Shown: piece by piece, positions 36,106 to 62,025 of the stretch | Layout: each line of letters begins with the position of its first letter | How positions within the stretch are numbered: position 1 is the stretch's first letter | NCBI RefSeq assembly: GCF_000317225.1 | Contig: NZ_AJLL01000049.1 | Location: forward strand, 1-62,025 | Direction of reading: 5' to 3' | Origin: Fischerella thermalis PCC 7521 | Lineage (GTDB): Bacteria; Cyanobacteriota; Cyanobacteriia; Cyanobacteriales; Nostocaceae | DNA: 62,025 bases | Program-made: the position numbers and the translations under genes | Notes under the pieces: model-generated | Told to the model about the DNA's origin: nothing | Seen by the model: the letters and a program-made list of their open reading frames with translations, nothing else | Databases searched by the model: none

Positions 36106-36801
36106 TTAAAACAATTCTTCTTTGATTAACCGACCATCTTCTATGTGAATTATTTTATCTGCTATATCTAAAACTCTGTTGTCATGAGTCACCATCAAAA
36201 TAGCACATTGCTGTTCCTTAGCCAGTTGTTGCATTATTTCTACAACCTCTCTACCAGACTTACTATCTAAGGCAGCAGTAGGTTCATCAGCTAAGACTAA
36301 TTTGGGCTGGCTCACTAAAGCACGAGCAATAGCTACCCGTTGCTTTTGTCCTCCCGAAAGCTCGCTAGGATAGTAATTAATTCGATGTCCTAATTTAACA
36401 GCATGGAGCATTGCTTCTGATCTCAGGCGAGACTTTCGGTAAGAAATATTTCTGTGTAGTTCAAGTGACATTTGTACATTCTGTCGGGCTGTTAAGAAAT
36501 CCAGTAAGTTGTGAGCTTGGAAAATATAGCCAATGTTGCGGCGTACTTGCACTAATGTTTCATTACTTGCCCCATGTAACTCCCAATCCAAAAATTTGAG
36601 GCTTCCTTCTTGGACAGAGCGCAATCCACCAATCAAAGTTAGTAAAGTTGTTTTTCCAGAACCCGATGGGCCAGATAAAATCACAATTTCTCCAGATTTT
36701 ATCACCAAATTAATGTCAAATAAAATCTGGCTTCGTAATGATTTTTGACCAAAATAGTGATTTAGATTTTTAACGGAAACAACAACTTCTTGTTGAAACA
36801 T
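36106..36801 (-). CDS. devA: DevA-family ABC transporter ATPase
   Basis: 231 residues. Walker [18 protein letters not shown]-loop region [16 protein letters not shown], signature [15 protein letters not shown], Walker [13 protein letters not shown] and the H-loop VTHD are all intact. It belongs to the LolD/MacB-like group and best fits DevA, the motor of the heterocyst-glycolipid exporter. Third gene of a devBCA order, 27 bp after devC. It would power lipid export through DevC, DevB and a TolC-type channel. Beside the synthase cluster it is the likely exporter of that product. Confidence 0.93.
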
Positions 36802-36828
36802 GGATTTTGTAGTTCATTTGATGATAAA

Positions 36829-38001
36829 TTAAAAAATTTCAGCTGGATCTACTACTCGTAATTTATTTGTTGATAAAAATGCAGAAGTTAAGCACATTAA
36901 TAATGTCGCAAATAATATTATTAATGCCTTGTCATAGCTCATAATAACTGGTAACTTAGTAGCATTTTTTGCTAAATCATATAGAAATATAGATATAAAT
37001 ATGCCCGGGATATAACCTAATATTGCCAAAATGAAAGCTTGTTTAAAAACAACACCTAATAAGTATTTATTTTTAAATCCCATTGCTTTTAAGGTTGCAT
37101 ATTCAGCTAAGTGGCTAGATATATTACTATAAAGTATTTGATAAACAACAACTACACCAACAATAAAGCCCATAATTACCATCAGATTAAAGATAAATCC
37201 AATTGGTGTTCTGACACTCCAATAGTTTTTTTCAAAATCAATAAAACCTTCACGTGTCAAAACTTTTACATCTTCGGGTAAGTGAGCTGACAGCATTGCT
37301 AAAACTTTTTGGGGATCAGCACCAGGTTTGAGAGTAAGTAAGCCTATATCTATATATTCGGGAGAACGATCTTGGAATACTTTGATGAAAGTTGAGTAAC
37401 TAATCATTAAATTGCCATCAACTCCAAAGGAAGGCCCTAGCTTGAATAAGCCAGCAACTTTTACTCTATAACCAACTAATGAATTATATCCAAATATTTC
37501 AATACTGACAGGTTCGTTTTGGGAAAATTTTTCTGCAATTGGACCAAATTCTGGACGTGAACCACGATCAAATAAAACTACGTTAGGACGTTTGAGTAGA
37601 TTTAAATTTTCATTAACTTCGGGCAATTTAAAAACCGATTTTGCGGGATCAAAGCCAAGTACATAAATCGGAAATTTCCGACCATTTATTGGATTTTTGA
37701 GTTTAGCAAATTGAACGTATAAAGAGTTGACTGATTCTATATCATCAAAGCCTAATGCTTGATATAAGCGGATGCGTGGAAAACTTTGATTTGAAGTCAA
37801 GGATTTATATTGGGAACTGATTAAAAATAAATCTCCTTCTAAGTTTTTTTGTACTTGTGTAGCACTGGCATAAAGAGCATCTTGGAAGCCAATTTGCATA
37901 AACATCAAAACAGCTACAAATGCAATACCAGCCAAAGCTACTAGAAAGCGAAGTTTTTGTCGAGCTAGTTGTAGCCAGGCTACAGGTATTTTATTTCTCA
38001 T
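36829..38001 (-). CDS. devC: DevC-family ABC exporter permease
   Basis: 390 residues. One N-terminal membrane helix (LVALAGIAFVAVLMFMQIGF) is followed by a large periplasmic domain (about 45-265) and three C-terminal helices with the FtsX-like core (AEYATLKAMGFKNKYLLGVV). This is the MacB/DevC topology. The N-terminus IPVAWLQLARQKLRFLVAL is typical of DevC. It sits between devB and devA with 29- and 27-bp gaps, so one transcript is likely. Confidence 0.93.
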   Translation of the reverse strand: MRNKIPVAWLQLARQKLRFLVALAGIAFVAVLMFMQIGFQDALYASATQVQKNLEGDLFLISSQYKSLTSNQSFPRIRLYQALGFDDIESVNSLYVQFAKLKNPINGRKFPIYVLGFDPAKSVFKLPEVNENLNLLKRPNVVLFDRGSRPEFGPIAEKFSQNEPVSIEIFGYNSLVGYRVKVAGLFKLGPSFGVDGNLMISYSTFIKVFQDRSPEYIDIGLLTLKPGADPQKVLAMLSAHLPEDVKVLTREGFIDFEKNYWSVRTPIGFIFNLMVIMGFIVGVVVVYQILYSNISSHLAEYATLKAMGFKNKYLLGVVFKQAFILAILGYIPGIFISIFLYDLAKNATKLPVIMSYDKALIILFATLLMCLTSAFLSTNKLRVVDPAEIF

Positions 38002-38030
38002 CTTTTAAACCTCAAAACTGAGATTAGAAT

Positions 38031-39239
38031 TTATTCGTGAGATTGCTCAGTGTTTATGAGTACTTCTACTTGTAAGTTAGTAAGGGCTGCTACTCGTTGA
38101 TTATCTGCTGGATTATTGATACGGATCTTGACCTCAACTACTTTATTATCTGTATCTGCTCCTGGATTGTTAGTAAAGATATTTTGTTGAGTAACTTGTA
38201 AACCTATATCTGTTACTGTTCCTTGTATTTCTCCCAGAAAAGCATTGCTAGTAATAGTTGCAGGCTGATCTAAACGTACTTTTTGAATATCAGTTTCATA
38301 GACTTCGGCTACCACATACATCTGATCTGTGCGACCTATCTGAGCAATTCCTTGATTGCCAATGATTTCTCCAGGCCAGGTATAAATTTTTATGATTTGG
38401 CCATCTATAGGCGATCGCACTATGCTTAAATTCAGATCCGCTTGAGCCTGTGCTACTGCTGTTTTTGCCTTCTCAACCTCAGCTTGCGCTGCTTGTATAT
38501 CGGTAGGACGGACTTCAGCAATACTTGCTAGCCTGGCTCTAGCTTCTGTTAACTGTTTTTGCAGAGTGTCGACTGTACGGTTTTGCGTAGCTTTTGCCTC
38601 ATTCAGTTGTTGTTGAACAGTATCCACTCTCAAGCGTTTAGCATCTGCATCGGATGCTGAAATGGCTCCCTCTTGGTATAACATCTGATATCGGCGATTT
38701 TCGCTTTCAGCATTACGCAATTCTGCCTCTAGGCGAGCTATGGTTGCTTGTTGTGCAGATACTTCTCCACGTAACTCAGCTTCTATACGAGCAATAGTCG
38801 CTTTTTGGGCAGCTAAATCTCCTGCTTTTGCTCCTACTTTGACTTGATTGAGACTAGCTTGAGCAACTAGAACTTGTTTTTTAGTGTTTTCTAAGGCTGC
38901 AAGACGAACATAGAAACTATCAAGAAGTGCAATTGTTTGTCCTTTCCGCACCTTCTCTCCTTGCTGCACCAACAGTTGTGCAACTTGAACACCACCTTGA
39001 GAATTAGGAGCAGACAAATTAATCACTTCTCCTTGAGGCTCTAAACGTCCAAGAGCAGCAACAGCACTAATGGTAGGAGAATTAACTGGGTTAACTGAAG
39101 TGTTGTCTACGGATTTAGATCGAAATCTAGAAAAGCTGTAGAGAGAAATTGCACCAATACCTAAAGTCATAGCAATTGCCAGAATTATAGGCAAACGATT
39201 TATAGGTATCGTGATTGGCTGCCTTTGTTTTTGCACCAT
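38031..39239 (-). CDS. devB: DevB-family membrane fusion protein
   Basis: 402 residues. An N-terminal membrane anchor (PIILAIAMTLGIGAISLYSF), lipoyl-like half motifs (GRLEPQGEVINLSAP; QGEKVRKGQTIALLDS), a long alpha-hairpin coiled coil (about residues 115-260, with repeated ATIARIEAELRGE and ATIARLEAELRNA units), then RSPIDGQIIKIYTWPGE and a beta-barrel. Periplasmic adaptor linking DevCA to an outer-membrane TolC homologue. First gene of devBCA. Confidence 0.93.
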   Translation of the reverse strand: MVQKQRQPITIPINRLPIILAIAMTLGIGAISLYSFSRFRSKSVDNTSVNPVNSPTISAVAALGRLEPQGEVINLSAPNSQGGVQVAQLLVQQGEKVRKGQTIALLDSFYVRLAALENTKKQVLVAQASLNQVKVGAKAGDLAAQKATIARIEAELRGEVSAQQATIARLEAELRNAESENRRYQMLYQEGAISASDADAKRLRVDTVQQQLNEAKATQNRTVDTLQKQLTEARARLASIAEVRPTDIQAAQAEVEKAKTAVAQAQADLNLSIVRSPIDGQIIKIYTWPGEIIGNQGIAQIGRTDQMYVVAEVYETDIQKVRLDQPATITSNAFLGEIQGTVTDIGLQVTQQNIFTNNPGADTDNKVVEVKIRINNPADNQRVAALTNLQVEVLINTEQSHE

Positions 39240-39301
39240 AATCTATGCCTTCCTAGTATGAAATTTGTAGACAGACAAATGGCAATAGCTCTGCTCTACA
39301 G

Positions 39302-39484: not shown

Positions 39485-39544
39485 TCTGTAGCAGTGGGAG
39501 CCAATCAGGAATGTGTGTCTGCAATATTGTATTGATTTACGGGT

Positions 39545-40938: not shown

Positions 40939-40946
40939 CAATACTA

Positions 40947-41336: not shown

Positions 41337-44300
41337 ATGGCTCCTTCTAGAATTGAAGTTGACTTTGCAAAGTTACAAAAAGAAGTTAGCAATTGTGAAC
41401 AGACTTTGGACAAACTTATAAAGGTTAAAAAGATGATGTCTGCAAATGCAACTGAAATCAATAAAATTAACAAAAAACTGCACCAGAATCCTGTTGCTAT
41501 TATTGGGATGGCTTCTATCTTCCCAGAATCTAAAAATTTACAGGAATACTGGGAAAAAATTATTCGCAAAGTTGATTGTATTACCGATGTTCCTCCATCA
41601 CGCTGGAACATTAATGAATACTACGATCCTCACCCCAAAACCCCTGACAAAACTTACTGCAAACGTGGCGGATTCATCCCAGATATCGAATTTAACCCTA
41701 TGGAATTTGGACTTCCTCCCAATGTCTTGGAAGTCACAGATGTTTCACAGTTGCTAGGCTTGGTTGTTGCTAAAGCAGCAATGGAAGATGCTGGTTATGG
41801 TGAAAAAAGCCAATTTAACCGAGAACGCACAGGGGTAGTTTTAGGTGTAGCACTGGCAAGGCAGATGTCAATGCCATTGGCTACTAGATTGGAGTATCCT
41901 GTTTGGGAAAAAGTCTTAAAAAGTAGTGGCTTATCTGATGAAGATACGCAAAAAATTATCGAGAAAATCAAAAGTGCATATGTGCAATGGGAAGAGAATG
42001 CCTTTCCCGGTATGCTAGCGAACATAGTGGCTGGACGAATTGCCAACCGCCTGGATTTAGGAGGAATGAACTGTGTGGTGGATGCTGCCTGTGCCAGTTC
42101 CTTAGGCGCACTTGCGATGTCAATTAGTGAACTAATTGAGCATCGAGCCGACATGATGCTCACTGGTGGAGTTGACACTGACAACTCAATTGTTGCCTAT
42201 ATGTGTTTCAGCAAAACACCAGCTGTTTCCCCAAGCCAAAATCCCAAACCTTTTGATGCCCAATCAGATGGGATGATGCTGGCTGAAGGAATAGGGATGT
42301 TGGTGTTGAAGCGCCTTGAAGATGCGATTCGGGATAATGACCGAATCTATGCAGTTATTAAAGGTATTGGAACCTCCAGTGATGGTCGTTACAAAAGCAT
42401 CTATGCACCTCGCCCAGAAGGTCAAGTCAAAGCTTTGCATCGTGCTTATGAAGATGCAGGATTTTCACCTACTAGCGTAGGTTTGATTGAAGCACACGGT
42501 ACAGGCACCATGGTTGGAGATCCAGCCGAAGTCACAGCTCTCAAAGAAGTTTTCGGGGAAAATAATTGTAAAAAACAACATATTGCACTTGGAAGTGTCA
42601 AATCACAGATTGGACATGCCAAAGCTGCTGCGGGTGCAGCAAGTTTGATCAAAACAGCATTAGCTTTACACCACAAAGTCTTACCAGCAACCATTAACGT
42701 TACTAAGCCGCACCCGAAACTAGGTCTGGAAAACTCACCGTTGTATTTGAATACAGAAACAAGACCTTGGATTCGTTCTCAAGCAGAAGTACCAAGACGT
42801 GCAGGAGTAAGTTCTTTTGGTTTTGGTGGTACGAATTATCACGTTGTGTTAGAAGAATATTCGAGCGAACACGATCGCCCTTATCGTTTACATCATACTC
42901 CCCAGTCGGTGCTGTTATTTGCATCCACACCTGAGCAGTTACTAACACGCTGTCAAGAAATTCTACATCAGTTGCAATCCCCAGAAAGAGAACAGCATTA
43001 TGCAGAACTGATTGCGGCTTGTGCATCATTAGAAATTCCTGCCACAAATGCCAGAGTCGGATTTGTAGCCGAGTCTTTGACTGAAGCTTATAAAGCATTG
43101 CAAATATGTATTGATCTACTCACCAAGAAGCCACAAGCAGAATCGTGGGATCATCCCCAAGGAATTTACTACCGCAAAGCTGGTGTGGCAACAGCAGGCA
43201 AGGTAGTTGCCCTGTTTTCTGGGCAAGGTTCTCAATACCTGGAAATGGGTCGAGAACTAGTGATCAACTTTCCTTGCTTGCGACAGACCTATGGTGACAT
43301 AGATCAGCTTTTCTACAAAGATGACTTGCAGCCTGTTTCAGAAATAGTTTTCCCTCCCCCAGTTTTTGATACAGCCCAAAAACAGGCACAGGTTGCAGCA
43401 TTGCAACGTACAGAGTATGCACAGCCAGCAATTGGGGCATTCAGCGTTGGTCTTTACAAAATATTACAACAGGGAGGATTCAAGCCAGATTTTGTCTTGG
43501 GACACAGCTTTGGAGAATTAACGGCTCTGTGGGCTGCGGGTGTTCTCAGTGAGGAAGATTACTTTTTCCTAGTAAAAGCTAGGGGTCAGGCTATGGCTGC
43601 ACCAAATGATCCTGAGTTTGATGCTGGAGCTATGCTGGCAGTCAAAGGCGATATCTCTCAAGTGGAAGAAGTGATCAAGAATTTCCCCCTAGTGACTATC
43701 GCTAACTTGAATTCCCCTCGTCAAGTTGTGTTAGCAGGAGCGAAAGCTGAAATCGCCCAAGTGCAGGAACAACTAAAAGCGAAAGCTTATTCTACTGTCT
43801 TACTACCTGTTTCCGCAGCTTTTCATACACCCCTGGTAGCTCATGCTCAAAAACCTTTTGCTCAAGCAATTGAGAAAGTGAGTTTCCAAGAGCCAACAAT
43901 CCCTGTTTACACTAATGTCACAGGAGAGCGTTACCCCAATGAACCACAAGCCATTCAAAAAATCCTTAAACAACATCTGATTAATCAGGTACTTTTTAAG
44001 CAAGAGATTGAAAACATTTACGCTCAAGGTGGCTATTGTTTCATAGAGTTTGGTCCTAAAGGCATTCTCACCAGCTTAGTCAAAGATATCCTTGGTGATC
44101 AACCTCATTTAGCTGTGGCTTTAAATGGCAGCTATCAAAAAGATAGCGATCGCTGTTTGCGAGAAGCTGTGACGCTGTTACGTGTCGCTGGTTTACCTTT
44201 ACAAAACCCTGACCCCTACCAAATTGAGCAGAAAGTACCAGAAGTTCCCAAAAACAAGCTGTTGACTGTACAACTAAATGGTAGTAACTACGTCTCAGAA

Positions 44301-51700: not shown

Positions 51701-51971
51701 TGAACAACAAAAAAAATACCAGTATCCTCCTACTTCTTCTTTAAAAAAACATAGTTATGTTTCTAAATTACATGTACTAAACTTACGCAATGATTTATAT
51801 CAAAAGCTGAGTGAAAACACATCCCAGTTCACCAAATCTCATGCTAATTTTTTACAATTTCGACAAGAATCACTACTGCAAATTAGTCTAATAATTCAGC
51901 GTCAATTAGATTGTTTGCAGCATATTTTCGATAAAAATGACGTAGATAACGAGCATTCAGCCAGAGAGTAA
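48753..51971 (+). CDS. PfaB-like protein: degenerate ketosynthase plus acyltransferase
   Basis: 1072 residues. Residues 8-430 have a ketosynthase fold (start PKIAIVGMDCFLGG; NIGHTYTVSG with H340), but the catalytic cysteine is replaced: alignment with the neighbouring synthase puts Q167 there (AEQHSVCKAF), and the HGTGT histidine is lost (FASGVPQ). Residues about 530-860 form an acyltransferase with S640 in GYSLGE. The C-terminus repeats a helical pattern seen in the partner's AT-ACP linker (FLQFRQESLLQISLIIQRQL). PfaB in PUFA synthases has this layout and helps set chain length or loading. AAGGA lies 10 bp before the ATG. Confidence 0.88.
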   Translation: MGINEQMKNPKIAIVGMDCFLGGCQGLDTFERSIYEGTQHFITFPSQGSQELNKQKQYLANYGFESNFTPLGAYIEDFEIDFSDFQLASEEAEKLKPQELLMLKVADNALKDAKLDQRSRVAVVIVAATELSLRLINQEAKDAISNQWSISSLWNFPGPLFTLIAEQHSVCKAFEVAKKLLTIREVDAVVVGAVELAENSASLLTRNQTATVNTGVHTLSYDQNVNGWMLGEGAAAVVLKLHETAQQDGDRIYAVIDALNILKDNSSSQTIPDSKAVTQVCQLAFDMASVKPADIGYLEVFASGVPQQDESEILGLLQAYRTSDPGLNCAIGSVKANIGHTYTVSGIVSVIKTALCLYHRYIPGVPHWSTPKMPQAWEGSPFYVAPESRPWFLATGATKRIAAINSMEIDGSYAHLILSEEATQIQRSSRYLEQMPFYLFAIAANDCPTLLEQLRALEQTIANSSSLSAAASLTFTAYQQRQHATYALSILGRNQEELTREIQRALQGVADAFNTGKDWQTPVGSYFTPKPLTNKGNVAFVYPGAYSSYVGIARNLFRLFPKIYEDPVIQSVYSRVLNIEKLLYPRSLSKLSTKQLEALEQQLIDDPVAMLESEVGVAGLLSAILKNYFQLQPHSVFGYSLGETSMMLSQGIWAHFHEGSEDLNSSALFKTQLSGPKNAVRKYWGLTQEQNSEGKEFWSTYILMCPVSRVREALKNEERVYLTLINTPEEVAIAGDTQACQRIIQTLNCDAFRAPFNHVIHCEAIRSEHDALVKLNTLPIQNIPNTVFYSAAEYKPITLDSHSVGNNIAKVLIQQLDFPRLVERVWEDGSRIFIEVGAGSNCSRWISRTLKQKEHITVSLNKRGIDEHTCIVKALAKLLSHRVNMDLSPLYSQVQENTRQIQPKLRTITLNGSEFNFTALTKKDQKNFQNPTSDTLIQNNKKQQYKPLDLREFERLNPYFQQGRIKSLEFVEESPKPDFTTTGEQQKKYQYPPTSSLKKHSYVSKLHVLNLRNDLYQKLSENTSQFTKSHANFLQFRQESLLQISLIIQRQLDCLQHIFDKNDVDNEHSARE

Positions 51972-52201: not shown

Positions 52202-53854
52202 GTGACTAGTGTAGACACTTTACCGTATAAAACTTCTCAAAACCTCAAATTTTCCACATTCTTGCCCAATCATAATCAAACTTGGCAAGGTTCTTTAGAC
52301 TCTGTATCTTTTGATGAAGAGGGTATAAAAGCTAAAGTGCTGAATTTAGATAAACCTTGTTACATTGTCAGGATTGAAAGTCAAATCGGCGTCACCAACG
52401 AAGGTTATTTGTACAATTCCAATCATGGACAAGCAGGAAAAGTGGAAATGCTCATAGCTGTTCCACCCCTCAGTATTCAACAATTAGGCGATCCAACTTT
52501 CTTGGAATTTCATGGCGTGAAATACGCCTACGCCACTGGGGCGATGGCTCATGGTATTGCTTCTGAAGAATTAGTAATTGCTCTTGGTAGAGAGAGAATA
52601 TTAAGTTCATTTGGTGCTGGAGGTTTAGCTGCTTCCCGTGTGGAAGCAGCCATTAACCGCATTCAACAAGCCTTGCCAAAAGGACCTTACGCTTTTAACT
52701 TGCTCCACAGTCCTAGCGAACCTGCTATTGAACGCAGTGTCGTTGACTTGTATCTCAAATATCAGATGAGAACAATAGAAGCCTCTGCCTTTCTGGATTT
52801 GACTGACAACATTGTTTACTATCGAGCTGCTGGGCTGGGTTTAAGTGCAGCTAATGAAATCGAAATCAAAAATAAAGTCATTGCTAAAATCTCTCGCAGA
52901 GAAGTTGCAACTAAATTTATTCAACCTGCCCCTACAAACATTCTCAAGCGATTAGTTGAACAAGACCTCATCAGTGAATTACAGGCAAAACTAGCCGAAC
53001 AAGTCCCAATGGCAGATGACATCACTGTAGAAGCAGATTCTGGTGGTCATACGGATAATCGTCCTCTAGTTTGCCTTTTACCTTCAATTTTGGAATTGAG
53101 AGATGAAATTCAAAGAAAATACTGTTACGAACAAGCTGTCAGAGTCGGAGTAGCAGGAGGAATAGCAACTCCCCAATCAGCATTAGCCGCTTTTATGATG
53201 GGTGCTGCTTATATTGTCACTGGCTCTATCAACCAGTCTTGCGTTGAAGCTGGAACTTCTCAATATACAAAACAATTACTAGCTCAAGCCGAGATGACTG
53301 ACGTGATGATGGCCCCAGCAGCTGATATGTTTGAAATGGGAGTAAAACTTCAAGTTCTTAAAAGAGGAACTTTCTTTCCCCTCCGGGCACAAAAACTGTT
53401 TGATTTATACAAAAACTATAACTCAATTGAAGACATTCCACCTTTAGAAAGAGAGAAACTAGAAAAACAAGTTTTTAAAAAGAATCTGGAAGTAATTTGG
53501 AAAGAAACCACTACTTATTTATCTCAAAGAAATCCCGATAAGTTAATTAAAGCTGCCAACAATCCCAAAATGAAGATGGCTCTAATTTTTCGCTGGTATC
53601 TTGGATTGTCGTCTCGCTGGTCTAATTCTGGGGAAAAAGGTCGAGAAACTGATTATCAAATCTGGTGTGGTCCAGCAATGGGTAGTTTTAATGATTGGGT
53701 CAGGGGTTCTTATCTTGCTGATCCAAATAATCGCAAAGTGGTTGATGTTGCTAACCATATTATGAGAGGTGCTGCATATTTATTCCGCATCCAAAGTTTG
53801 AAAATGCAAGGATTGCAAATGCCAGCTACCTACATGCAGTATCGACCACAATAA
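52202..53854 (+). CDS. pfaD: PfaD-family FMN enoyl reductase
   Basis: 550 residues from GTG 52202. TIM-barrel flavoprotein of the PfaD/PksE group, often mislabelled nitronate monooxygenase. Clear family motifs: GSINQSCVEAGTSQYTKQLL, MMAPAADMFEMGVKLQVLKRG and WCGPAMGSFNDWVRGSYL. In PUFA synthases it reduces the enoyl-ACP intermediate in trans. The synthase next door lacks its own ER domain, so PfaD should supply that step. Gene order synthase-PfaB-PfaD matches pfa clusters except that PfaC is missing. Confidence 0.95.
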   Translation: MTSVDTLPYKTSQNLKFSTFLPNHNQTWQGSLDSVSFDEEGIKAKVLNLDKPCYIVRIESQIGVTNEGYLYNSNHGQAGKVEMLIAVPPLSIQQLGDPTFLEFHGVKYAYATGAMAHGIASEELVIALGRERILSSFGAGGLAASRVEAAINRIQQALPKGPYAFNLLHSPSEPAIERSVVDLYLKYQMRTIEASAFLDLTDNIVYYRAAGLGLSAANEIEIKNKVIAKISRREVATKFIQPAPTNILKRLVEQDLISELQAKLAEQVPMADDITVEADSGGHTDNRPLVCLLPSILELRDEIQRKYCYEQAVRVGVAGGIATPQSALAAFMMGAAYIVTGSINQSCVEAGTSQYTKQLLAQAEMTDVMMAPAADMFEMGVKLQVLKRGTFFPLRAQKLFDLYKNYNSIEDIPPLEREKLEKQVFKKNLEVIWKETTTYLSQRNPDKLIKAANNPKMKMALIFRWYLGLSSRWSNSGEKGRETDYQIWCGPAMGSFNDWVRGSYLADPNNRKVVDVANHIMRGAAYLFRIQSLKMQGLQMPATYMQYRPQ

Positions 53855-53900
53855 GACTTAATATTATGTTCGCTTGAATACTTATATTGTCGCGTGGGCT

Positions 53901-54044: not shown

Positions 54045-54962
54045 ATGAAACGTGTATTGGTAGTTTACTACTCACAATCGGGAGATGTGACTCGTGCAGT
54101 CGAATCTTTTACTAAATTTCTCCAAACAGCAGAAATTGAGCTTACCTGGGAGTGTATAAAACCAAAAGATAATTATCCTTTTCCTTGGAGCTTATATAAA
54201 TTTTTTGATGTTTTTCCAGAATGTGTGAACGGGGAGCCGCCGGAAATCTATCCACCGAAATTTGGTAATGATGAGAAATTTGATCTAATTATTCTTGCTT
54301 ATCAGGTTTGGTTTTTAGCTCCATCTTTACCAATTCAGGGTTTTTTAAAATCCAAGTATGCCAAAGTTTTAGAGAATACGAAAGTTATTACTTTAGTAGT
54401 CTGTAGAAATATGTGGCACTCTGCCTCAGAAACGATGAAGAAAATGATTGCTGAAGTCGGAGGAATTCATATTGACAATGTGGTTTTGACTCACCAAGGG
54501 CCACCTTTGGCTACTTTTATCACCACTCCCCGGTTACTGTTGACTGGGAAAAAAAACAGATTTTTGGGAGTGTTACCTGCTGCTGGTGTTAGAGATGAGG
54601 ATATTTATGCACTATCAAGATTTGGGAAGCGGATAGCTAATAATCTCGCAGCCTTAAGTGATTCTTCGCGTCAACCAATGCTTCAAGGACTTGGGGCGGT
54701 TGAAGTGAATCAACGCTATGTCATTCCAGAATTTATTGGGCGCTTGGTATATCGTCCCTGGGCTAAGATAGCTCGTTTTTTTGGTAAACAGGGGAGCTGG
54801 AGCAGAATACCAATAGTCTGCATCTTTGCAGTTCAGCTCATATTTGCTATTCCAATTGTCCTTATAGTTTCCACTGTCGTTCAACTTCTTTTTGCTCCAC
54901 TGATTCATAAAAAAATAGCATCTTATGTTGAGCTTCTCAAATCCCCATCTGGTGTGGATTAG
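54045..54962 (+). CDS. darA: DarA-like dialkylresorcinol-forming enzyme (aromatase)
   Basis: 305 residues. A flavodoxin-like N-terminus (VLVVYYSQSGDVTRAVESF, a phosphate-binding loop) and YQVWFLAPSLPIQGFL match the DarA family, labelled dialkylresorcinol condensing enzyme. In characterised dar pathways DarB forms a cyclohexanedione and DarA aromatises it to a 2,5-dialkylresorcinol. The C-terminus has a membrane helix pair (IFAVQLIFAIPIVLIVSTVV), so the step probably occurs at the membrane. DarB follows 77 bp on. Confidence 0.85.
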   Translation: MKRVLVVYYSQSGDVTRAVESFTKFLQTAEIELTWECIKPKDNYPFPWSLYKFFDVFPECVNGEPPEIYPPKFGNDEKFDLIILAYQVWFLAPSLPIQGFLKSKYAKVLENTKVITLVVCRNMWHSASETMKKMIAEVGGIHIDNVVLTHQGPPLATFITTPRLLLTGKKNRFLGVLPAAGVRDEDIYALSRFGKRIANNLAALSDSSRQPMLQGLGAVEVNQRYVIPEFIGRLVYRPWAKIARFFGKQGSWSRIPIVCIFAVQLIFAIPIVLIVSTVVQLLFAPLIHKKIASYVELLKSPSGVD

Positions 54963-55039
54963 CAGTGAACAATAACTAATTGCTTTCAGGGAAACACGTT
55001 TTAAAATTTAAAGTTTTGCTCAGTTCTTTGGAGAAGATT

Positions 55040-56188
55040 ATGACTTCAGCATATATTACAGGTCTAGGAGTATTTCTACCTAATGAACCGGTAAATAATG
55101 AGGAAATTGAAAATGTTCTTGGGTTAGTCAACGGAAAGCCTTCTCGTTCTAAAAATCGCATCCTCAAAAACAACGGTATCAAATCTAGATATTATGCAAT
55201 AGATCCAAAAACTGGCAAGCAAACCCATACTAATGCACAATTAACAGCCGAAGCAGTACGTATTCTTGTAAAAAACACTAATATTTCGTTAGAAGAAATA
55301 GAGTGTTTGGTTTGTGGCACATCTTCTCCAGATCAGATTATTCCTAACCATGCTCTTATGGTGCATGGAGAACTTGGATGTCCTCCCTGTGAGGTTGTAG
55401 CTACAAGTGGTGTTTGCTGCTCAGGGATGACTGCATTCAAGTATGGATATATGAACGTATCTTCTGGTTGGAGTAAAAATGCTGTAACAACAGGATCAGA
55501 ACTTGCATCAACTGCATTTAAGGGAGTGTACTTTCAACCAGAAATAGAAGCAAAAATTCAAGATTTGGAAGCAAAACCGATCATAGCTTTTGAGAAGGAT
55601 TTTTTGAGGTGGATGCTTTCTGATGCCGCAGCAGCAGTGCTGATAACGGATACTCCTCGTCAAAATGGTATTTCACTTAGAATAGATTGGGTTGAAATCA
55701 TCTCTTTTGCCAATGAACTAGAGACTTGTATGTATGCAGGGGGTGTCAAGAGAGTTGATGGTTCTTTACAAGGGTGGCGGGAAGTCGAAAATCCAGAAGA
55801 ACTATGGAAGGAGAGTTATTTTGCCTTAAAGCAGGATGTAAAATTGCTAGGAGAAAATGTAGTGTCCTATGGGAAAAAAGGCTTGTTACAAGTCCGGGAT
55901 AAACATAGTCTCAAAGCAAATGAGATCACTTGGTGTTTGCCTCACTACTCATCAGAACATTTTAGACAACCGCTTTACGATGAGTTGATGGAAATTGGAT
56001 TTGAGATTCCTTTGGATAAATGGTTTACTAACTTAACCTACAAAGGTAATACAGGTTCTGCCTCTATCTTTGTTATGTTAGAAGAATTAGTGTCATCTGG
56101 AAAACTGGAACAAGGTGATAAAATCTTTTGCCTAGTTCCCGAAAGTGCTAGATTTTTATACGCTTATATGCTTTTGACAGTGGTTTAA
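55040..56188 (+). CDS. darB: DarB-like ketosynthase (KAS III family)
   Basis: 382 residues from ATG 55040, which has GGAGAAG 4 bp upstream; an upstream in-frame start lacks this. FabH-like fold with the complete C-H-N triad: C127 (GVCCSGMT), H302 (CLPHYSSEH) and N337 (YKGNTGSAS). DarB joins two acyl-derived units and closes a 1,3-cyclohexanedione ring. The pairing with darA makes this reading far more likely than ordinary fatty-acid initiation. Acyl substrates would come from the PUFA-type synthase upstream. Confidence 0.87.
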   Translation: MTSAYITGLGVFLPNEPVNNEEIENVLGLVNGKPSRSKNRILKNNGIKSRYYAIDPKTGKQTHTNAQLTAEAVRILVKNTNISLEEIECLVCGTSSPDQIIPNHALMVHGELGCPPCEVVATSGVCCSGMTAFKYGYMNVSSGWSKNAVTTGSELASTAFKGVYFQPEIEAKIQDLEAKPIIAFEKDFLRWMLSDAAAAVLITDTPRQNGISLRIDWVEIISFANELETCMYAGGVKRVDGSLQGWREVENPEELWKESYFALKQDVKLLGENVVSYGKKGLLQVRDKHSLKANEITWCLPHYSSEHFRQPLYDELMEIGFEIPLDKWFTNLTYKGNTGSASIFVMLEELVSSGKLEQGDKIFCLVPESARFLYAYMLLTVV

Positions 56189-56359
56189 TGTGTGCTGCGT
56201 GGCCACTATTCAACAAACTCAACATCGACGGGTGAAGACAGATGCGGTGAATGTTTGCACTACCCGTTATGAAGGAAAAAAACAAGTCAAACCCTCTTCC
56301 CTTATGCTCTCTGCCTTATTGCTTAAAAGATTTAAATAATTGCTCCAGGTTTAATTCAG

Positions 56360-58132
56360 ATGGAAAATCTATTGAGCAAATTGGAAAGTGATATCAATGC
56401 CTACTTTTTAAGGGTGTTTAATGTAAGTACACCTGGCACCGACTTGCTTTTCAGGAGCGAAGGCAGTGAAATCATGTGGGGTCGCTCCGGAAATGATACT
56501 TTTGTGGGTTTGAAACCTGGTGATGACCATTTCGCTCAACCGCAAATGGATATTATCCTGGGTGATGCAGACTTCATGGCAGCGCTAGAGGGTAGTCAGC
56601 TTCGCTGGGACGACAGATTTGTTCTCGGTGATTGGAAACAGCCATATTACACCAGTAGTAAAGGACTTGATTTTGGTTTAAAACAATTTGCTACAATTTT
56701 AGACTTCAATCCTTGGCAAGATGTCATTCAGCTACATGGCGCTCCAAAAGATTACTACTTGCTCAAATCTCCCGCAGGAGCAGCAATATTTTGGAAGCAG
56801 GGAACTGTACCTGACCTTGTAGCTGTTTTGCCTGGCACTCACCATTTGAGTCTTGAGGGAAACTACTTCCAGTATGAGGGTTACACCCCACCACCTGAAC
56901 CAGTACAAGGGAGGATCCAGCAATTGGGAACTGCTGATTTTGACATACTTACAAGTTCAACCACAGATCCCTTTGGCAATTTATATGTAGCAGGAGTAAT
57001 CAGTAGCTCATTCGGAAAAGATAATGCGGGATCTAATGATGTCTTGGTGAGTAAGTATGATAGCGATGGCAATCAGCAGTGGGTTCAACAGTTTGGCACT
57101 CCTTATTCTGACTTAGCTACTAGCATCGTTGCTGACAACAAAGGTAACTTCTATGTAGCGGGAATATCGAAAGGCGATTTTGGAGGAGCCAATCAAGGAG
57201 AAGGAAATTATGATGTCTGGGTGGGCAAGTATGATAGCGATGGTAATCAGCAGTGGGTTCAACAGTTTGGAACTGAACTGATTGATGCTTCCTTTAGCAT
57301 GAAAGTTGATGACGATGGTAGTGTTTACCTCACAGGATTCACTATTGAGCAACAACAGGAAGGATTATTTTTTCAGCCTAATGTCTTTGCGGATGATGCC
57401 TGGGTAACTAAGTATGATAGCAATGGCAACCAGCTGTGGTTTCAACAGTTTGGCAGTTCCGCTTTTGATGAAGCTTATGCTGTAACTGTCAGTAATGATG
57501 GCAGTGTTTATTCTACAGGCTGGACTCTGGGGGACTTGGGAGGAAAGAATGCTGGGCAATATGATGTCTGGATTGCCAAGAATGACAACAATAGTGGTCA
57601 GTTGGAGTGGACGAAACAGTTTGGTACTAAGGATTTTGAATTCCCTAAGGGGATTGACACAGACAGCCAAGGCAATGTCTACATGACAGGATGGACTTTG
57701 GGTAACTTGGGAGGAAAAAATGCTGGATCTAATGATGCTTGGATTGCCAAATATGACAGCGATGGTAATCGACTGTGGATAAAACAGTTTGGCACTTGTG
57801 GTGATGATGCATCCTCGAGCATGAAGGTCGATTCCAATGGCAATATTTTTCTAGTGGGGTATACTGACAAAAACTTGGAAGGAAGCAATGCTGGCTCTAA
57901 TGATGCCTGGATTGCCAAGTACGACAATGAAGGCAAGCAGTTGTGGATTCAACAGTTTGGTACATCCAAGTCTGATGCTGCCACCAGTATTACATTAGAC
58001 AATTTTGGTAATGTCTACGTAACAGGAACTACTGAGGGTTCCTTTGGAGCGATTAATGCTGGGTCAGTGGATAGCTGGATAGCCAAACTTGATTCTGAGT
58101 CAGGTACTTTACAAGATTTTAGTGGCGCTTAA
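56360..58132 (+). CDS. CylK/BrtB-like beta-propeller alkylating enzyme candidate
   Basis: 590 residues. The N-terminal domain (1-180) has a calcium-binding-like stretch (GRSGNDTFVGLKPGDDHF) and DDRFVLGDWKQPYY. From about 185 to 585 seven SBBP-type blades follow, each with a (K)YDSDGNQQWVQQFGT-like strand and a G(N/S)VYxTG turn. This exact layout, RTX-like head plus seven-bladed propeller, is that of CylK, which alkylates resorcinol rings with secondary alkyl chlorides, and BrtB, which forms C-O bonds with chlorinated dialkylresorcinols. R86 is a guess for the CylK halide-site arginine. Next to DarAB and a CylC-like gene this role is strongly suggested. A plain structural SBBP protein is the alternative. 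Confidence 0.75.
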   Translation: MENLLSKLESDINAYFLRVFNVSTPGTDLLFRSEGSEIMWGRSGNDTFVGLKPGDDHFAQPQMDIILGDADFMAALEGSQLRWDDRFVLGDWKQPYYTSSKGLDFGLKQFATILDFNPWQDVIQLHGAPKDYYLLKSPAGAAIFWKQGTVPDLVAVLPGTHHLSLEGNYFQYEGYTPPPEPVQGRIQQLGTADFDILTSSTTDPFGNLYVAGVISSSFGKDNAGSNDVLVSKYDSDGNQQWVQQFGTPYSDLATSIVADNKGNFYVAGISKGDFGGANQGEGNYDVWVGKYDSDGNQQWVQQFGTELIDASFSMKVDDDGSVYLTGFTIEQQQEGLFFQPNVFADDAWVTKYDSNGNQLWFQQFGSSAFDEAYAVTVSNDGSVYSTGWTLGDLGGKNAGQYDVWIAKNDNNSGQLEWTKQFGTKDFEFPKGIDTDSQGNVYMTGWTLGNLGGKNAGSNDAWIAKYDSDGNRLWIKQFGTCGDDASSSMKVDSNGNIFLVGYTDKNLEGSNAGSNDAWIAKYDNEGKQLWIQQFGTSKSDAATSITLDNFGNVYVTGTTEGSFGAINAGSVDSWIAKLDSESGTLQDFSGA

Positions 58133-58212
58133 AAACAGGTATTTAGATGTTGTTTGAAAAACTTCATAACACATCAAATCTTTGATGTTACAGAATCCAT
58201 GAAGAGGGACAT

Positions 58213-59439
58213 ATGATAGATGACACCGAAGAGTCAAAGATAAAAAAACAACTACAAAACAAATCTGATACACCGATCAAGAAGCATTTAAAAGCCACGG
58301 AAATCAACTATCGGCGTAACAGGGAGTCCAACTATACCGAGAAAATAACCGAGTTAGATCAAAGTTTTGATTACAGCAACCACAAAAATCATTATTGGAG
58401 TGACCCTGAGTTTTCAATCCTCTATGGCACTCCACTCTACGATGCAGTTTCCCCCTCACAAAAGATTGCTCTTAATCATCTATTTTGGGTTGGAGGTTAC
58501 AATCTTACTGCTGCTAGCGAAGTTAACACAGCTCTTTACAATCAAGTAACAGGTAGTGTTTTTTACAACATAGGCGGTTACGAAACCCTCTGTCATGAAC
58601 TGGATGTAGAAACTTCACAGGAACGTCACCATATTCATGCTTTTCGCACGATTGGTAACATGACGGAGATGGCCATACTAGGTAAGGTAATAGTTGGTGA
58701 TCCTCTCACAGGGAATGAGTCCAAGGTGATTCAAAAGGGTCTGGTTGGGCGTTTGTCGCCTGGACCAATACGTCAGTTATTCGGCTTTAACTGGGGAAGT
58801 ACACCTTTCTTAGCATCACAATACTATGCCTTGCGCTTCATCGCCAATATGCTTCTCAAGCTAACAGAATACAGCCGTTCTCAGTATTTCAGGAAGTTAG
58901 AAAAGAAAGGTGAGTTTATCCCATCTCCCACGGCTGTCTCTCACTACCATTTCTTGGACGAATCTTTTCATACTACAACTTCGTTGCTGATCGCTCAAGA
59001 ATTGTACAAGGACTTTCCAAAGCCAACAGCTTATGAGAAATTCATGGCAAATTTTTCAATTTACATGATGCAACTTACCATTCTGAATGGGCTTTCTGCT
59101 GGTGCAGTTGCGAGCTTTTCTCCAGACCAACTCTTTGTCATACCCTTAGTCTATAAGATATTACGGTCTCCTCTATTTGGTATGTCTACCCAAGAAGCAC
59201 TCTTTTGGATAGAGAGATGCTTCTGTCATGAGCATGAAGGTTTACATTTGAATTTGAAGTACCATCAACGTCTCATTTCAGAACTGTGCAGATTTTTCGA
59301 CAAACTAGACTACACATGGCCTATTAATCGTGAAATGCGTGTTATGGCTACAGGAGGCTCGATTAGTAAGGCTATCCAAAATAACATTAAATTCTTTCAT
59401 AAGTTCTCCAAGTCTGTTGTCCGTGAGAATACTTATTAG
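58213..59439 (+). CDS. AurF/CylC-like dimetal-carboxylate halogenase or oxygenase
   Basis: 408 residues. A full seven-ligand set is visible: E103, E137 and H140 (QERHH), E219, and H246, E250, H253 (HFLDESFH). The spacing nearly equals AurF (E101, E136, H139, E196, H223, E227, H230), with E219 to H246 exactly 27 as in AurF. CylC-type members of this superfamily chlorinate unactivated alkyl carbons of acyl-ACP, while AurF is an N-oxygenase. A further His/Glu-rich segment, CHEHEGLHLNLKYH (338-351), is unexplained. GAGGG precedes the ATG. The CylK-like and ACP neighbours favour halogenase, but this is inference. Confidence 0.85.
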   Translation: MIDDTEESKIKKQLQNKSDTPIKKHLKATEINYRRNRESNYTEKITELDQSFDYSNHKNHYWSDPEFSILYGTPLYDAVSPSQKIALNHLFWVGGYNLTAASEVNTALYNQVTGSVFYNIGGYETLCHELDVETSQERHHIHAFRTIGNMTEMAILGKVIVGDPLTGNESKVIQKGLVGRLSPGPIRQLFGFNWGSTPFLASQYYALRFIANMLLKLTEYSRSQYFRKLEKKGEFIPSPTAVSHYHFLDESFHTTTSLLIAQELYKDFPKPTAYEKFMANFSIYMMQLTILNGLSAGAVASFSPDQLFVIPLVYKILRSPLFGMSTQEALFWIERCFCHEHEGLHLNLKYHQRLISELCRFFDKLDYTWPINREMRVMATGGSISKAIQNNIKFFHKFSKSVVRENTY

Positions 59440-59454
59440 TTCGTAATGAACGTT

Positions 59455-59492
59455 TTGGCGCTTTAGCGCTTACTAAAAACCCATCAATTCAA
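59455..59492. repeat. GGCGCTTTAGCGCTTAC hairpin repeat
   Basis: GGCGCT and AGCGCT form a short palindrome after the CylC-like stop. It may act as a weak terminator or is a dispersed palindrome. Confidence 0.35.
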
Positions 59493-59605
59493 ACTTACGT
59501 AGTTTAATCTGGATTTGTGCGATCGCTAGCTAGTTGAACAACCCCACCTATGAATTAACGTAATTTTCAGTATTGTCCCAATTCCTTTACTTTACAGGTG
59601 TGAAT

Positions 59606-59911
59606 ATGAGTCAGTCTGTCATTAATTCAGGTGTAAAGCGGTCATATACGGCAGAAGAAATCCAAGCCTGGCTAGTATCTAACATTTCTGAGATGCTGGG
59701 AGTTGAACCCAATGAGATAGATATCCAAGAACCTTTGGATAGTTATGGCTTGGATTCAGCACAAGGGATGGTTCTTGCTAGTAGAGCAGAGAAATTGCTT
59801 GGATTTAAACTATCTCTAATTCTATTGTGGCATTACCCCACAATTGAAATGCTCAGCAAACGTTTAGCAGAAGAATTGGCAGATTCGGATTCAGAGATTT
59901 TTGAGATTTGA
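59606..59911 (+). CDS. free-standing acyl carrier protein
   Basis: 101 residues from ATG 59606 (AGGTG upstream; an in-frame TTG 33 bp earlier is less likely). PCP/ACP fold with the phosphopantetheine serine S51 in YGLDSAQGM. The sequence [18 protein letters not shown] and [17 protein letters not shown] resembles ACPs that partner with acyl-AMP ligases and with CylC-type halogenases (CylB-like). It likely presents an acyl chain to the CylC-like enzyme 166 bp upstream. Confidence 0.9.
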
Positions 59912-59998
59912 ACATAATCCGCTACAAAGAATTTTAGATTTTAAATTGAATGAATCTAAAATTCAAAATCCACAGTCCTATTGAGGGATTCTACAACT

Positions 59999-61870
59999 AT
60001 GAATGCATACGATCTTTTGGAAAATCTGATTCAAAAAGGTGTTCACTTGTGGGTCGATAACGAAAAACTAAATCTTCGTTCTCCTAAGGGAATAATGACA
60101 CCAGAAATGCAAGCAGAACTAACTGCTCATAAATCAGAAATACTAACCTTGCTACGTGATAGAGATGTCACCACTAAAGCTGCTTCTGTTCCACTAAGTA
60201 TGGGACTAAGCCTGCAAACCATTGGTCGTTTAATCGGGGGATTTGTTAAAAAATCAGCTGTGGAATATAAGCCACCAGTTATTGATCCCAGAGTGATGGC
60301 TCAAAAACTAACGGTGACATTTAGACCATTACCAAAGGGTTATAAACAGATAGAAATTATTAAATTTCGAGAAGAACTAGCAGAGAAGCTCAGCAATTAT
60401 GGAGTAAAAATTTTATCTTGGGAAGAAGCAACAACTGAATTTTACTATGATGTTAACTTGCCATTAATTAACTTCAATAAGAGCCTGAAAATTAGGGGGG
60501 TAAAAGCAGAGATAGATGCGGTAATTGATGTAGAAAAAAATCCAAATTTTATCAGAAAATTAGGTGTATATGTAGCAGAAATGCTTTATTATGTGTATTC
60601 TCAATTCATCTTGAATAATCAACATATTTCTGTTTCTAGAATCGCTAAATTGAGTAGTTGGGCAGAAGATCATGTAGCTAAATATATTGAAGATCCAACT
60701 AACACTCAAGTAATTATCCTGAGTGAAATCGATAAGGATTTTGTCAATCCTCTCATCAATTATCAAGAAAAAATAAACATTGGGATAAACACTCTGGTTA
60801 GAACATTTTCAGAAATGGTTATTGGTGTTTCCAAGGACAAAATTTCCATTTTAAATATGAATCTCTCAGATTCTATTTTTCCTAGAAAGGAGATGGAATA
60901 TTTTGTTTTGAATTCCCTGGTTCCTAAAGTTTTTGTACCAATATATCCACTATTACTGAATAGATTTACTTTAGAGCAGTATAAGCCTCATGAATCTAGC
61001 TATGCTGAAAAACTTGTGAAATTAGGTAACGAACTAGCATCTACAGGTCTATTTCCGCCAGGCTTTAAGCTTTGTGAAGTTATCAAAAGGAAATCCCATA
61101 GAGATATTGTGAATGTCATAGTGAATGGGAGGACAGGCGTTTCTTATGGTTTTGTTGCTTATGTTGAACCTCCACAATATGTTGGTGAACCAGAAATAAC
61201 TGAAGATGAGTGGCAAAATCTATTATCTGTTGCAGGATTTAGTAGTGATGAATTTCGTCAGAATGAAAAAGGTAGGTATTACATAAAAACCAAGGTAAAA
61301 GCAGAATATAGATATAAGCAAATCCCAGATATTTGGCTTGTTAGTTCTCGTTCCGGTGCAAACAAAACAGATTTAAACTTGGAAAGCGATATCATTCGGA
61401 TTGGTTTGAAAGAAAAGTTATTTCTGCAATTACCAAATGGTATTAATCCAGAGCTAGTAGATATCAAACCTTCTTATGATATCTATGTCATGCTTGCTAT
61501 TAGTTTGTCTGCTGCCTTATATACACCAGATCTGATTAAAAATGGTGCGCCAATTGTTCACTTCCACGGCTACCCAGCAGCTGAATGGTTTAAACAGAAT
61601 GAATACTGCGTTGGAATCAACAACCCTTCAGTTCCTTGTGGTACTTATGAATCCGGAGTATTGAATTTTTTGGGAATTTCTAGCTTGGCAAATCAACAGG
61701 TAGACAATCCAGCGTTAGTAAGTTTGATAGAACCAGATCATGGCACAAATTTTATAGCTCATGATTTGGAGTATCTAGTACAAAGATTGCAGGCTGGATG
61801 TACACAAGGACAAATTGAACTTGGTGGCAAACATTTTGCTTCTTTGAAGACAAAATTAAGCGATCGCTGA
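59999..61870 (+). CDS. TubC-type docking domain fused to an unrecognised 570-residue body
   Basis: 623 residues from ATG 59999, preceded by GAGGGA at 59983-59988; an in-frame TTG at 59981 would add six residues. Residues 1-52 fit the TubC N-terminal docking domain of NRPS/PKS subunits (AYDLLENLIQKGVHLWVDNE; GIMTPEMQAELTAHKSEIL). The rest is mostly soluble, with no NRPS or PKS domain that I can see. Distinctive stretches: VHFHGYPAAEWFKQNEYCVG and PSVPCGTYESGVLNFLGI near 530-570. The docking domain implies protein-protein contact with an assembly-line enzyme. Function unknown. Confidence 0.6.
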   Translation: MNAYDLLENLIQKGVHLWVDNEKLNLRSPKGIMTPEMQAELTAHKSEILTLLRDRDVTTKAASVPLSMGLSLQTIGRLIGGFVKKSAVEYKPPVIDPRVMAQKLTVTFRPLPKGYKQIEIIKFREELAEKLSNYGVKILSWEEATTEFYYDVNLPLINFNKSLKIRGVKAEIDAVIDVEKNPNFIRKLGVYVAEMLYYVYSQFILNNQHISVSRIAKLSSWAEDHVAKYIEDPTNTQVIILSEIDKDFVNPLINYQEKINIGINTLVRTFSEMVIGVSKDKISILNMNLSDSIFPRKEMEYFVLNSLVPKVFVPIYPLLLNRFTLEQYKPHESSYAEKLVKLGNELASTGLFPPGFKLCEVIKRKSHRDIVNVIVNGRTGVSYGFVAYVEPPQYVGEPEITEDEWQNLLSVAGFSSDEFRQNEKGRYYIKTKVKAEYRYKQIPDIWLVSSRSGANKTDLNLESDIIRIGLKEKLFLQLPNGINPELVDIKPSYDIYVMLAISLSAALYTPDLIKNGAPIVHFHGYPAAEWFKQNEYCVGINNPSVPCGTYESGVLNFLGISSLANQQVDNPALVSLIEPDHGTNFIAHDLEYLVQRLQAGCTQGQIELGGKHFASLKTKLSDR

Positions 61871-61917
61871 ATTTAATTCGATTGAGTACAAATCATGAAA
61901 TACAATATACAATACTT

Positions 61918-62025
61918 ATGTTCTACGACAGAAAACTTTCTCCTTTGGAGCAAGTTATAGAAATCGTAAATCGTCGTGCTGGTGCATACAACATAGTTAC
62001 GATTTGTCGAATTAACGGATTACTC
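61918..62025 (+). CDS. condensation-domain-like acyltransferase, 5' end only
   Basis: The frame is open from ATG 61918 to the window edge (36 codons). It begins FYDRKLSPLEQVIEIVNRR and continues with YNIVTICRING, which resembles the first helix and strand of NRPS condensation and PapA-type acyltransferase domains. The catalytic HHxxxD would lie outside the window. It is 47 bp after the previous gene, so probably in the same operon. Confidence 0.55.
   Translation, partial: MFYDRKLSPLEQVIEIVNRRAGAYNIVTICRINGLL

Follow-up and report, generated by a model that had tools for sequence, protein, structure and literature searches.

What does a cyanobacterium make when a polyunsaturated fatty acid (PUFA)-type synthase, the dialkylresorcinol enzymes DarA and DarB and a CylK/CylC pair stand in one row of genes? 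The question is raised by the 62,025-nucleotide stretch of Fischerella thermalis PCC 7521 considered here (the window), which is one complete contig within a 5.44 Mb cyanobacterial assembly. Its plus strand carries, in order, PfaA, a PfaB-like protein, PfaD, DarA, DarB, CylK, CylC, an acyl carrier protein (ACP), a protein with a TubC_N docking domain (the TubC-docked protein) and the start of a PapA-type acyltransferase, with the exporter DevBCA divergent on the opposite (-) strand (Table 1). An earlier note on this DNA had named these genes, and all of them were confirmed within 36106-62025, DevBCA divergent; what it had called a C-domain start, however, opens a PapA-type acyltransferase at 61882, and a nonribosomal peptide synthetase C-domain was rejected there because the start matches PapA of G070 (96%), the family being assigned by Pfam in relatives (G, C and L numbers denote genomes, contigs and loci). 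We favor, at a probability of about 55%, the reading that a DarA-DarB-CylK-CylC cassette was acquired by an hgl-like island, one of the compact paralogues of the heterocyst glycolipid (hgl) island, made up here of exporter, PUFA-type synthase, ACP, TubC-docked protein and PapA, and that the two form a joint pathway to a resorcinol lipid. The predicted product is most likely an exported, chain-chlorinated, O-alkylated, acylated long-chain dialkylresorcinol whose chains the PUFA-type synthase supplies. This reading is built on what was observed of gene content and synteny, of motifs and phylogeny, and of block exchange and tail conservation.

The synthase half is recognized by models, motifs and phylogeny. 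PfaA, the PfaB-like protein and PfaD score 2229.8, 157.4 and 657.9 bits against TIGR02813, TIGR02816 and TIGR02814 (cut-offs 1010.1, 144.3 and 449.25), and PfaA keeps its catalytic motifs (DAACASS, EAHGTGT, GHSFG, HxxxGxxxxP and two LGIDSI for tandem ACPs); the ketosynthase (KS) of the PfaB-like protein is a pseudo-KS that lacks the catalytic Cys motif, and its acyltransferase (AT) has GYSLG. With all three models above cut-off and tandem ACPs present, the set is a PUFA-type (Pfa) synthase. Compact hgl-like islands are reported to be common in heterocytous cyanobacteria, with a product given as unknown and probably neither a heterocyst nor an akinete glycolipid, and of 494 Cyanobacteriia in which an hgl island was counted, 259 carry more than one (PMC11804610, 2025). 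The window's genome holds a second, presumably true hgl island on contig C99 (KS part 65% identical), on which ground heterocyst glycolipid synthesis by the window locus was rejected. A PfaD tree of 41 rows divides eight hgl islands from 33 others, the window among them, on a branch with 100/100 support, and the window's PfaD falls with the hgl-like islands, in a clade distinct from that of the true hgl islands, C99 included. Held against the published content of hgl-like islands, hgdCB and hglEAFGCA homologues in five open reading frames (ORFs), DevB, DevC and the three synthase ORFs would fit and DevA is a sixth, under our inferred mapping of the Anabaena names. We take DevBCA and the PUFA-type synthase of the window as an hgl-like island. 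A further PfaA-like synthase of the same genome lies at G000:C97:143453-154259 (42% identity in the KS-AT part).

The cassette half rests on evidence of several kinds. DarB scores 570.1 bits against NF005293 (StlD/DarB; cut-off 450), matches the StlD structure 5gk0 with 440 bits and has the Cys-His-Asn motifs. DarA has no Pfam or NCBIfam match and a weak flavodoxin-like match in the PDB (E 0.0011), and its putative identity comes from its position beside DarB and from 53% identity to DarA of bartoloside-like loci; it occurs in 16 of 217 family genomes (15 full-length, one fragment) and, in a class-wide sample of 388 genomes, in four. CylC carries QERHH and HFLDESFH, that is, the QExxH and HxxDExxH motifs of dimetal halogenases (PMC12101540), intact in 10 of 10 relative sequences, and by these motifs is a putative dimetal-carboxylate halogenase; the residue check covered the two motifs, and two of the nine published residues lie outside them. 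A PDB sequence search with CylC gave chance matches only, and a plasmid search gave only distant homologues below 60% identity. CylC-like proteins are present in 116 of the 217 family genomes (E 1e-20), only nine of them, the window's included, at 72% identity or more. Two tandem CylC copies, 76% and 73% identical to the window's and both motif-intact, stand in G038 (L006 / L050).

Support for the union of these halves comes first from its recurrence. PfaA-PfaB-PfaD-DarA-DarB-CylK-CylC runs uninterrupted in the window and five other genomes (G070, G171, G172, G174 and G069, where PfaA is split into two ORFs) and recurs with changes in two more, and eight of the nine genomes with a CylC of at least 72% identity also carry synthase genes alongside. 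Since five other genomes keep the order and G038 and G004 hold the same genes, a chance grouping is excluded. As for the synteny that the earlier note had proposed as a check, the order is kept in five genomes and rearranged in two, but one genome has the cassette without the synthase and three have DarAB without CylK and CylC. The exceptions, together with several further points, weigh against a joint pathway. In G038, PfaD and DarA are separated by six ORFs, which include a type I polyketide synthase (PKS) that has a thioesterase, a type III PKS, another ACP, two further enzymes and an unassigned call; G004 has DarA-DarB-CylK-CylC behind the ACP and the TubC-docked gene; G042 has DarAB-CylK-CylC without a synthase, on a contig that begins 4.7 kb upstream of DarA; and the DarAB islands of G033, G035 and G173 lack CylK and CylC, which makes the parts separable. 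PapA was not seen in the fetched stretches of G038 and G206, the window's DarB falls below the stricter DarB model NF053539 (516.1 bits, cut-off 550), and CylC might, as it does for bartolosides, take ordinary fatty acids as its substrate while the synthase makes an unrelated lipid.

In a rival reading, which we consider possible but doubtful, two neighboring pathways share an exporter, the synthase making a general hgl-like lipid (an acyl ester formed by PapA) and DarAB-CylK-CylC a bartoloside-like lipid from ordinary fatty acids. It would account for the lone cassette of G042, for two loci outside the family (G423 and G461) with no PUFA synthase in 20 kb, and for the ACP, TubC-docked gene and PapA of islands that lack DarAB. 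The distribution of DarAB among synthases argues the other way. Among the 33 non-hgl islands, which were chosen by hand among the matches listed rather than drawn at random, so that their frequencies are no population estimates, and which were all inspected downstream, 11 carry DarAB; ten of these form one clade of the PfaD tree (95/89) and G004 stands separately (two changes). DarA directly follows PfaD in 9 of the 11, and their PfaB proteins are 72-97% identical to the window's, against at most 67% for the next group among the matches listed, as if the synthase had adapted. Among the matches listed, moreover, no genome with full-length DarA has a separate non-hgl PfaB island along with DarAB, and the four with DarAB outside a non-hgl island (G042, G077, G078 and G082) have only hgl-type PfaB. 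DarAB and DevBCA pair up repeatedly across loci: DarAB lies near DevBCA in G077 and G078, with two desaturases between them in G078, and about 5 kb from a divergent hgl-type DevBCA-PfaA set in G082, with an AMP-binding enzyme and an ACP between.

If synthase and cassette do form one pathway, as we favor, a long acyl chain would grow on carrier proteins through the action of PfaA, PfaB and PfaD, CylC would chlorinate an unactivated carbon of an ACP-bound chain, and DarB would join two chains into a ring that DarA would aromatize to a dialkylresorcinol. CylK would then displace chloride with an oxygen nucleophile (a fatty acid, a phenol or a hydroxyl of another molecule), the TubC-docked protein would take a chain from the tailed ACP and release it or hand it on, PapA would acylate a hydroxyl, and DevBCA would export the lipid to the outer envelope. 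We infer from sequence that synthase chains feed DarB and in which order the steps run, and likewise the identity of the nucleophile, the acyl transfer, what the TubC-docked protein does, the export and the product. Because neither a fatty acyl-AMP ligase (FAAL) nor a type III PKS was found in the 14 cluster ORFs scanned, the PUFA-type synthase is the simplest source of the chains, in agreement with the earlier note, which had preferred it to a ligase route; PfaB has been reported as a terminal acyltransferase (PMC12895367).

The CylK homologue bears on the nature of the linkage. It scores 508 bits against the solved CylK, with an alignment to 7fh7 that spans residues 13-589 and both domains, and its R42, Y401, E371 and A310 correspond to R105, Y473, D440 and E374 of CylK. 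The resulting set, Arg105/Ala374/Glu440/Tyr473 in CylK numbering, is shared by the window and the first CylK copies of eight other genomes (9/9); G042 also has a second copy, with Pro at 374. Arg105 and Tyr473 of CylK are reported to bind the alkyl halide, and the residue that acts as base, Asp in CylK, is Glu in BrtB and NglO (PMC8916777, PMC10849952). With both domains and equivalents of Arg105 and Tyr473, the window protein fits the CylK family that uses alkyl halides. Glu at 440, Ala at 374 and the lack of a type III PKS in the window set it apart from the C-alkylating cylindrocyclophane type, and of the bartoloside signature it has half, sharing Glu at 440, with Ala instead of Arg at 374 and no glycosyltransferase in the ORFs scanned. 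Because Glu occupies position 440, as in BrtB and NglO, an oxygen nucleophile is favored for CylK, short of proof.

The same residues speak to an improbable alternative, a cyclophane-like or cross-linked product in which CylK makes C-C bonds at a free position of the resorcinol ring, as in cylindrocyclophanes. Homology to the solved CylK is strong and identity to BrtB-like proteins only about 33%, and C-4 and C-6 of a 2,5-dialkylresorcinol are free. The ring position at which CylK acts, C-2, is however taken up by an alkyl chain in any dialkylresorcinol, no type III PKS is present in the window, Ala at 374 is uniform across the nine genomes, and Glu at 440 is the residue of the O-alkylating BrtB and NglO (PMC8916777, PMC10849952). 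Of the macrocyclic or esterified product that the earlier note had suggested, the PapA pair and Glu440 fit an ester or O-alkylated lipid, and the macrocycle is not favored because position 374 is Ala rather than Glu and because, like BrtB and NglO, the protein has Glu as its base.

Between PfaD and the ACP, the content of the 33 non-hgl islands varies. This slot holds one or two PapA genes in G041, G039, G092, G216, G209, G201, G162, G101, G010, G007, G197, G175, G195, G196 and G213; neither PapA nor an insert in G206; an AurF-like gene in G117, G118, G128 and G003, and one with PapA in G004; DarAB alone in G033; DarAB followed by a fatty acid desaturase or by two of them in G173 and G035; and DarAB-CylK-CylC in the window, G070, G171, G172 and G174, in G038 with extra genes and in G069 up to the contig end. 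In two DarAB islands (L106, L097), desaturases thus follow DarB where others have CylK/CylC, and the AurF-like diiron protein (432 aa) stands behind PfaD in four islands (L089, L112, L113, L090); the AurF-like proteins have EExxH where CylC has QExxH (5/5). PapA is present in most of the 33 and was not seen in G206, G038 or the second islands of G033 and G035. Behind each of these second islands (L096, L114), both PUFA-type, come an ACP, a thioesterase-bearing type I PKS and a type III PKS; the two islands form a separate branch of the PfaD tree, and their product is perhaps another phenolic lipid.

The TubC-docked gene is present in 30 of the 33 non-hgl islands, with or without DarAB, and its protein was on that ground rejected as a member of the resorcinol part; it was not seen in the two type III PKS islands of G033 and G035 (about 10 kb inspected), and the last of the 33, G069, is cut by its contig end. 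The TubC-docked unknown and the ACP of the earlier note are accordingly present, as members of the general island rather than of the resorcinol part. TubC_N is the sole Pfam match in 23 of 23 members (E up to 1), and a PDB search returned the docking domain and weak matches only, yet mean column identity is 76% and many residues are invariant, Cys553, His527, His529, Asp586 and His587 among them. Of 388 sampled class genomes, 42 have a match at E 1e-10, and of these matches 31 span the enzyme part and 11 the docking domain only. The protein (59999-61870 in the window; L152-L165) is common to hgl-like islands and modular PKS clusters, and follows the last type I PKS in seven of the latter: G150, G043, G269, G529, G551, G298 and Gloeothece verrucosa PCC 7822 (WP_013334459.1). 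CylC accompanies it in four of the seven (G150, G043, G269 in part, and PCC 7822), a CylK homologue in G043 and an SBBP-repeat protein in PCC 7822.

Docking domains of the TubC_N family recognize short tails at the C-terminus of partner proteins, and a SESEIFEI-like tail ends the ACP before the TubC-docked protein in the window and in 28 of 29 relatives by one pattern, which was derived from the same data on which it was scored; the miss, G039, has D for E. By eye the tail is present in four of five further islands (G309 is without it). Such a tail ends all seven upstream PKS proteins of the modular clusters and, again by eye, none of 13 other ORFs of at least 700 aa in those loci. It is absent from four of four ACPs not adjacent to a TubC-docked protein, and the pattern occurs in 1 of 617 other ORFs of at least 150 aa. 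The TubC-docked protein would thus dock on the terminal ACP and take over its chain, with release as its likeliest role, and together with its cognate tail offers a lead to a new release or transfer enzyme common to PUFA-type and modular PKS systems.

A broader reading, which we offer tentatively and consider unlikely, would make hgl-like islands a modular envelope-lipid factory, with an invariable core (PUFA-type synthase, ACP with its tail, a new kind of release enzyme in the TubC-docked protein, in most cases PapA, and DevBCA export) and an exchangeable slot that sets head group and chain C-H chemistry. The window's version would then make a dialkylresorcinol with a chlorinated chain, and CylK, through attack of an oxygen on the alkyl chloride, would join it into a cross-linked or oligomeric phenolic lipid, a linking likened to the oligomerization of nostochlorosides reported for NglO (PMC10849952).

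The cassette also bears a trace of exchange. Across 52.2-61.9 kb, the window is 84-97% identical to G070, of its own genus, outside DarB-CylK-CylC and mostly 71-91% inside, where identity to G174, of another genus, is mostly 82-94%. In the best-fitting block (55159-59199), 478 of the 647 sites that separate G070 from G174 side with G174; outside it, 682 of 835 side with G070 and 153 with G174. With borders fixed at 55051-59250, Fisher's p is 7e-102, a certainty overstated by linkage among sites. DarB-CylK-CylC has thus passed from one lineage to another as a single block, an exchange to which we assign no direction. At the right edge of the block (59431-59498), some 1.65 kb of G070 include a gene for a flavin-dependent halogenase, present at that site in four relatives (G070, G171, G172, G174), and the window has 68 unrelated bases, so that the site of the missing halogenase coincides with the edge of the block. 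WxWxIP, a motif typical of flavin halogenases, is found in all four; no remnant was found in the window's CylC-ACP gap, and the window's genome holds only distant relatives, the best at 27%.

Block exchange and loss of the flavin halogenase could have left a decaying or chimeric cluster that makes nothing in this strain, a possibility that we regard as very improbable. The gene is indeed missing and the block mosaic, and DarA fragments of about 50 codons behind the hgl-like islands of G175, G195 and G196 (L105, L107, L117), the remains of lost cassettes, show that such cassettes do decay; these genomes are close kin of G004, and the cassette in them may be older and then have decayed. All ORFs of the window cluster are nevertheless open and the tested motifs intact, and G038 and G004 are likewise without the flavin halogenase in the stretches fetched.

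Several features of the setting complete the description (Table 1). The contig end falls inside a tandem PapA pair, and contig C50 of the same genome continues with the remainder of the second PapA (91% identical to that of G070), a reductase and DUF2141. Two small conserved ORFs sit between DevB and PfaA; the one at 39545-39859 has no Pfam match, keeps 83-86% identity in G216, G177, G038 and G004, and is more conserved than the surrounding enzymes. No glycosyltransferase, the dedicated heterocyst-glycolipid type included, was found in the 14 cluster ORFs scanned, and no nitrogen-condensing domain in the cluster. The remaining window (673-32590) is ordinary where scanned, with polyphosphate kinase, an MgtE transporter, a SpoIIE phosphatase, a glycogen phosphorylase-like protein, a radical SAM/B12 protein and a tRNA synthetase.

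Table 1. Features of the cluster and its surroundings, in window coordinates (KR, ketoreductase; DH, dehydratase; ABC, ATP-binding cassette).
Feature	Position	Strand	Basis
DevA-type ABC ATPase, divergent exporter	36106..36801	-	PF00005 118 bits; conserved in relatives
DevC-type FtsX permease	36829..38001	-	PF02687 58.3 bits
DevB-type HlyD membrane fusion protein	38031..39239	-	PF13437, PF16576
Small ORF, 104 aa	39545..39859	-	97-100% identity in G174, G070, G069, G171, G172
Small conserved ORF, 98 aa	40642..40938	+	91-97% identity, five relatives; sub-threshold DUF7939
PfaA/HglE-type synthase, KS-AT-ACP-ACP-KR-DH	41337..48467	+	model match, motifs
PfaB/HglC-like, pseudo-KS + AT	48753..51971	+	model match, motifs
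PfaD enoyl reductase	52202..53854	+	TIGR02814 657.9 bits; PfaD tree
DarA-like flavodoxin-type protein (putative)	54045..54962	+	position beside DarB; homology to bartoloside-like DarA
DarB, StlD-like ketosynthase	55040..56188 (ORF opens at TTG 54980)	+	NF005293; StlD 5gk0; motifs
CylK homologue	56360..58132	+	match to solved CylK; active-site residues
CylC-type dimetal halogenase (putative)	58213..59439	+	QERHH, HFLDESFH
Exchanged block	55159..59199	.	informative sites favor G174 over window's own genus
Site of G070 flavin-dependent halogenase insert (~1.65 kb)	59431..59498	.	68 unrelated bases in window
Free-standing ACP, C-terminal tail DSDSEIFEI	59606..59911	+	PF00550; tail comparison
TubC_N-docked protein	59999..61870	+	PF18563; core of hgl-like islands
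PapA-type acyltransferase start (48 codons), cut at contig end	61882..62025	+	96%/48 aa to G070 PapA

Our findings give a first testable idea of the product for one version of the hgl-like islands, and a natural comparison is offered by strains with and without the flavin halogenase and by those that carry desaturases instead of CylK/CylC. A published survey, by whose account dialkylresorcinol enzymes were not found in CylK clusters other than that of the bartolosides (PMC8916777), is also amended by eight more loci, in or near one family, that combine CylK-CylC with DarAB, or by nine if the window is counted. Eight dialkylresorcinol-type CylC clusters, some in Nostocales, have been described (PMC8406957), and the window cluster may be among them.

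How new the union is depends on which part of it is compared. The closest relatives of the synthase half are the hgl-like islands (PMC11804610), which share with the window the form of a compact hgl paralogue, an hgdCB-type exporter divergent or adjacent, a synthase of HglE/PfaA, PfaB/HglC and PfaD/HglA type, and their place as a second island beside a normal hgl island; the window's island differs in carrying DarAB-CylK-CylC between PfaD and ACP, and the main text of that paper mentions neither 'resorcinol' nor 'halogen'. For the other half, bartoloside (brt) clusters, which are reported to make chlorinated dialkylresorcinols, likewise bring together DarA, DarB, a CylK/BrtB-type and a CylC/BrtJ-type enzyme and DevBCA (PMC7081238), and may serve as precedent for that combination. 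G423 and G461 have the order CylK-DarA-DarB-ORF-DevB-DevC-DevA-CylC, the ORF being a UDP-glycosyltransferase (scanned in G423), and we take them as bartoloside-type because position 440 of their CylK is Glu and position 374 Arg, features reported for BrtB (PMC8916777). The window differs from these loci in its PUFA synthase, in Ala at CylK position 374 and in the UDP-glycosyltransferase of G423, and identity to them is 53% for DarA, 59-60% for DarB, 32-33% for CylK and 49-50% for CylC. A union never seen before was thus rejected, since DarAB, CylK, CylC and DevBCA occur together in bartoloside-like loci; each half of what the earlier note had called undescribed is known, and it is the joining, a PUFA-type synthase with DarAB and CylK/CylC, for which we found no description in the open-licence PubMed Central papers searched.

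More distant systems share single traits with the window. The nostochloroside (ngl) cluster likewise has CylC and CylK homologues with a PKS, and its CylK homologue NglO, with Glu at the base position, makes ethers; as described, it differs in a FAAL-started modular PKS, a glycosyltransferase and the lack of DarAB (PMC10849952), and the modular CylC-PKS clusters related to it have the TubC-docked protein in common with the window. The cylindrocyclophane cluster shares the CylC/CylK pair, which there serves a cryptic chlorination, and differs in its FAAL and its type III PKS CylI, neither of which is in the window (PMC8916777). The Azotobacter ars system, which by published accounts uses a type III PKS instead of DarAB and has no halogenase, resembles the window in setting a Pfa-like type I synthase beside resorcinol-forming enzymes (PMC3098273, PMC13291983), and by analogy may be a precedent for a type I synthase that feeds a resorcinol-forming enzyme.

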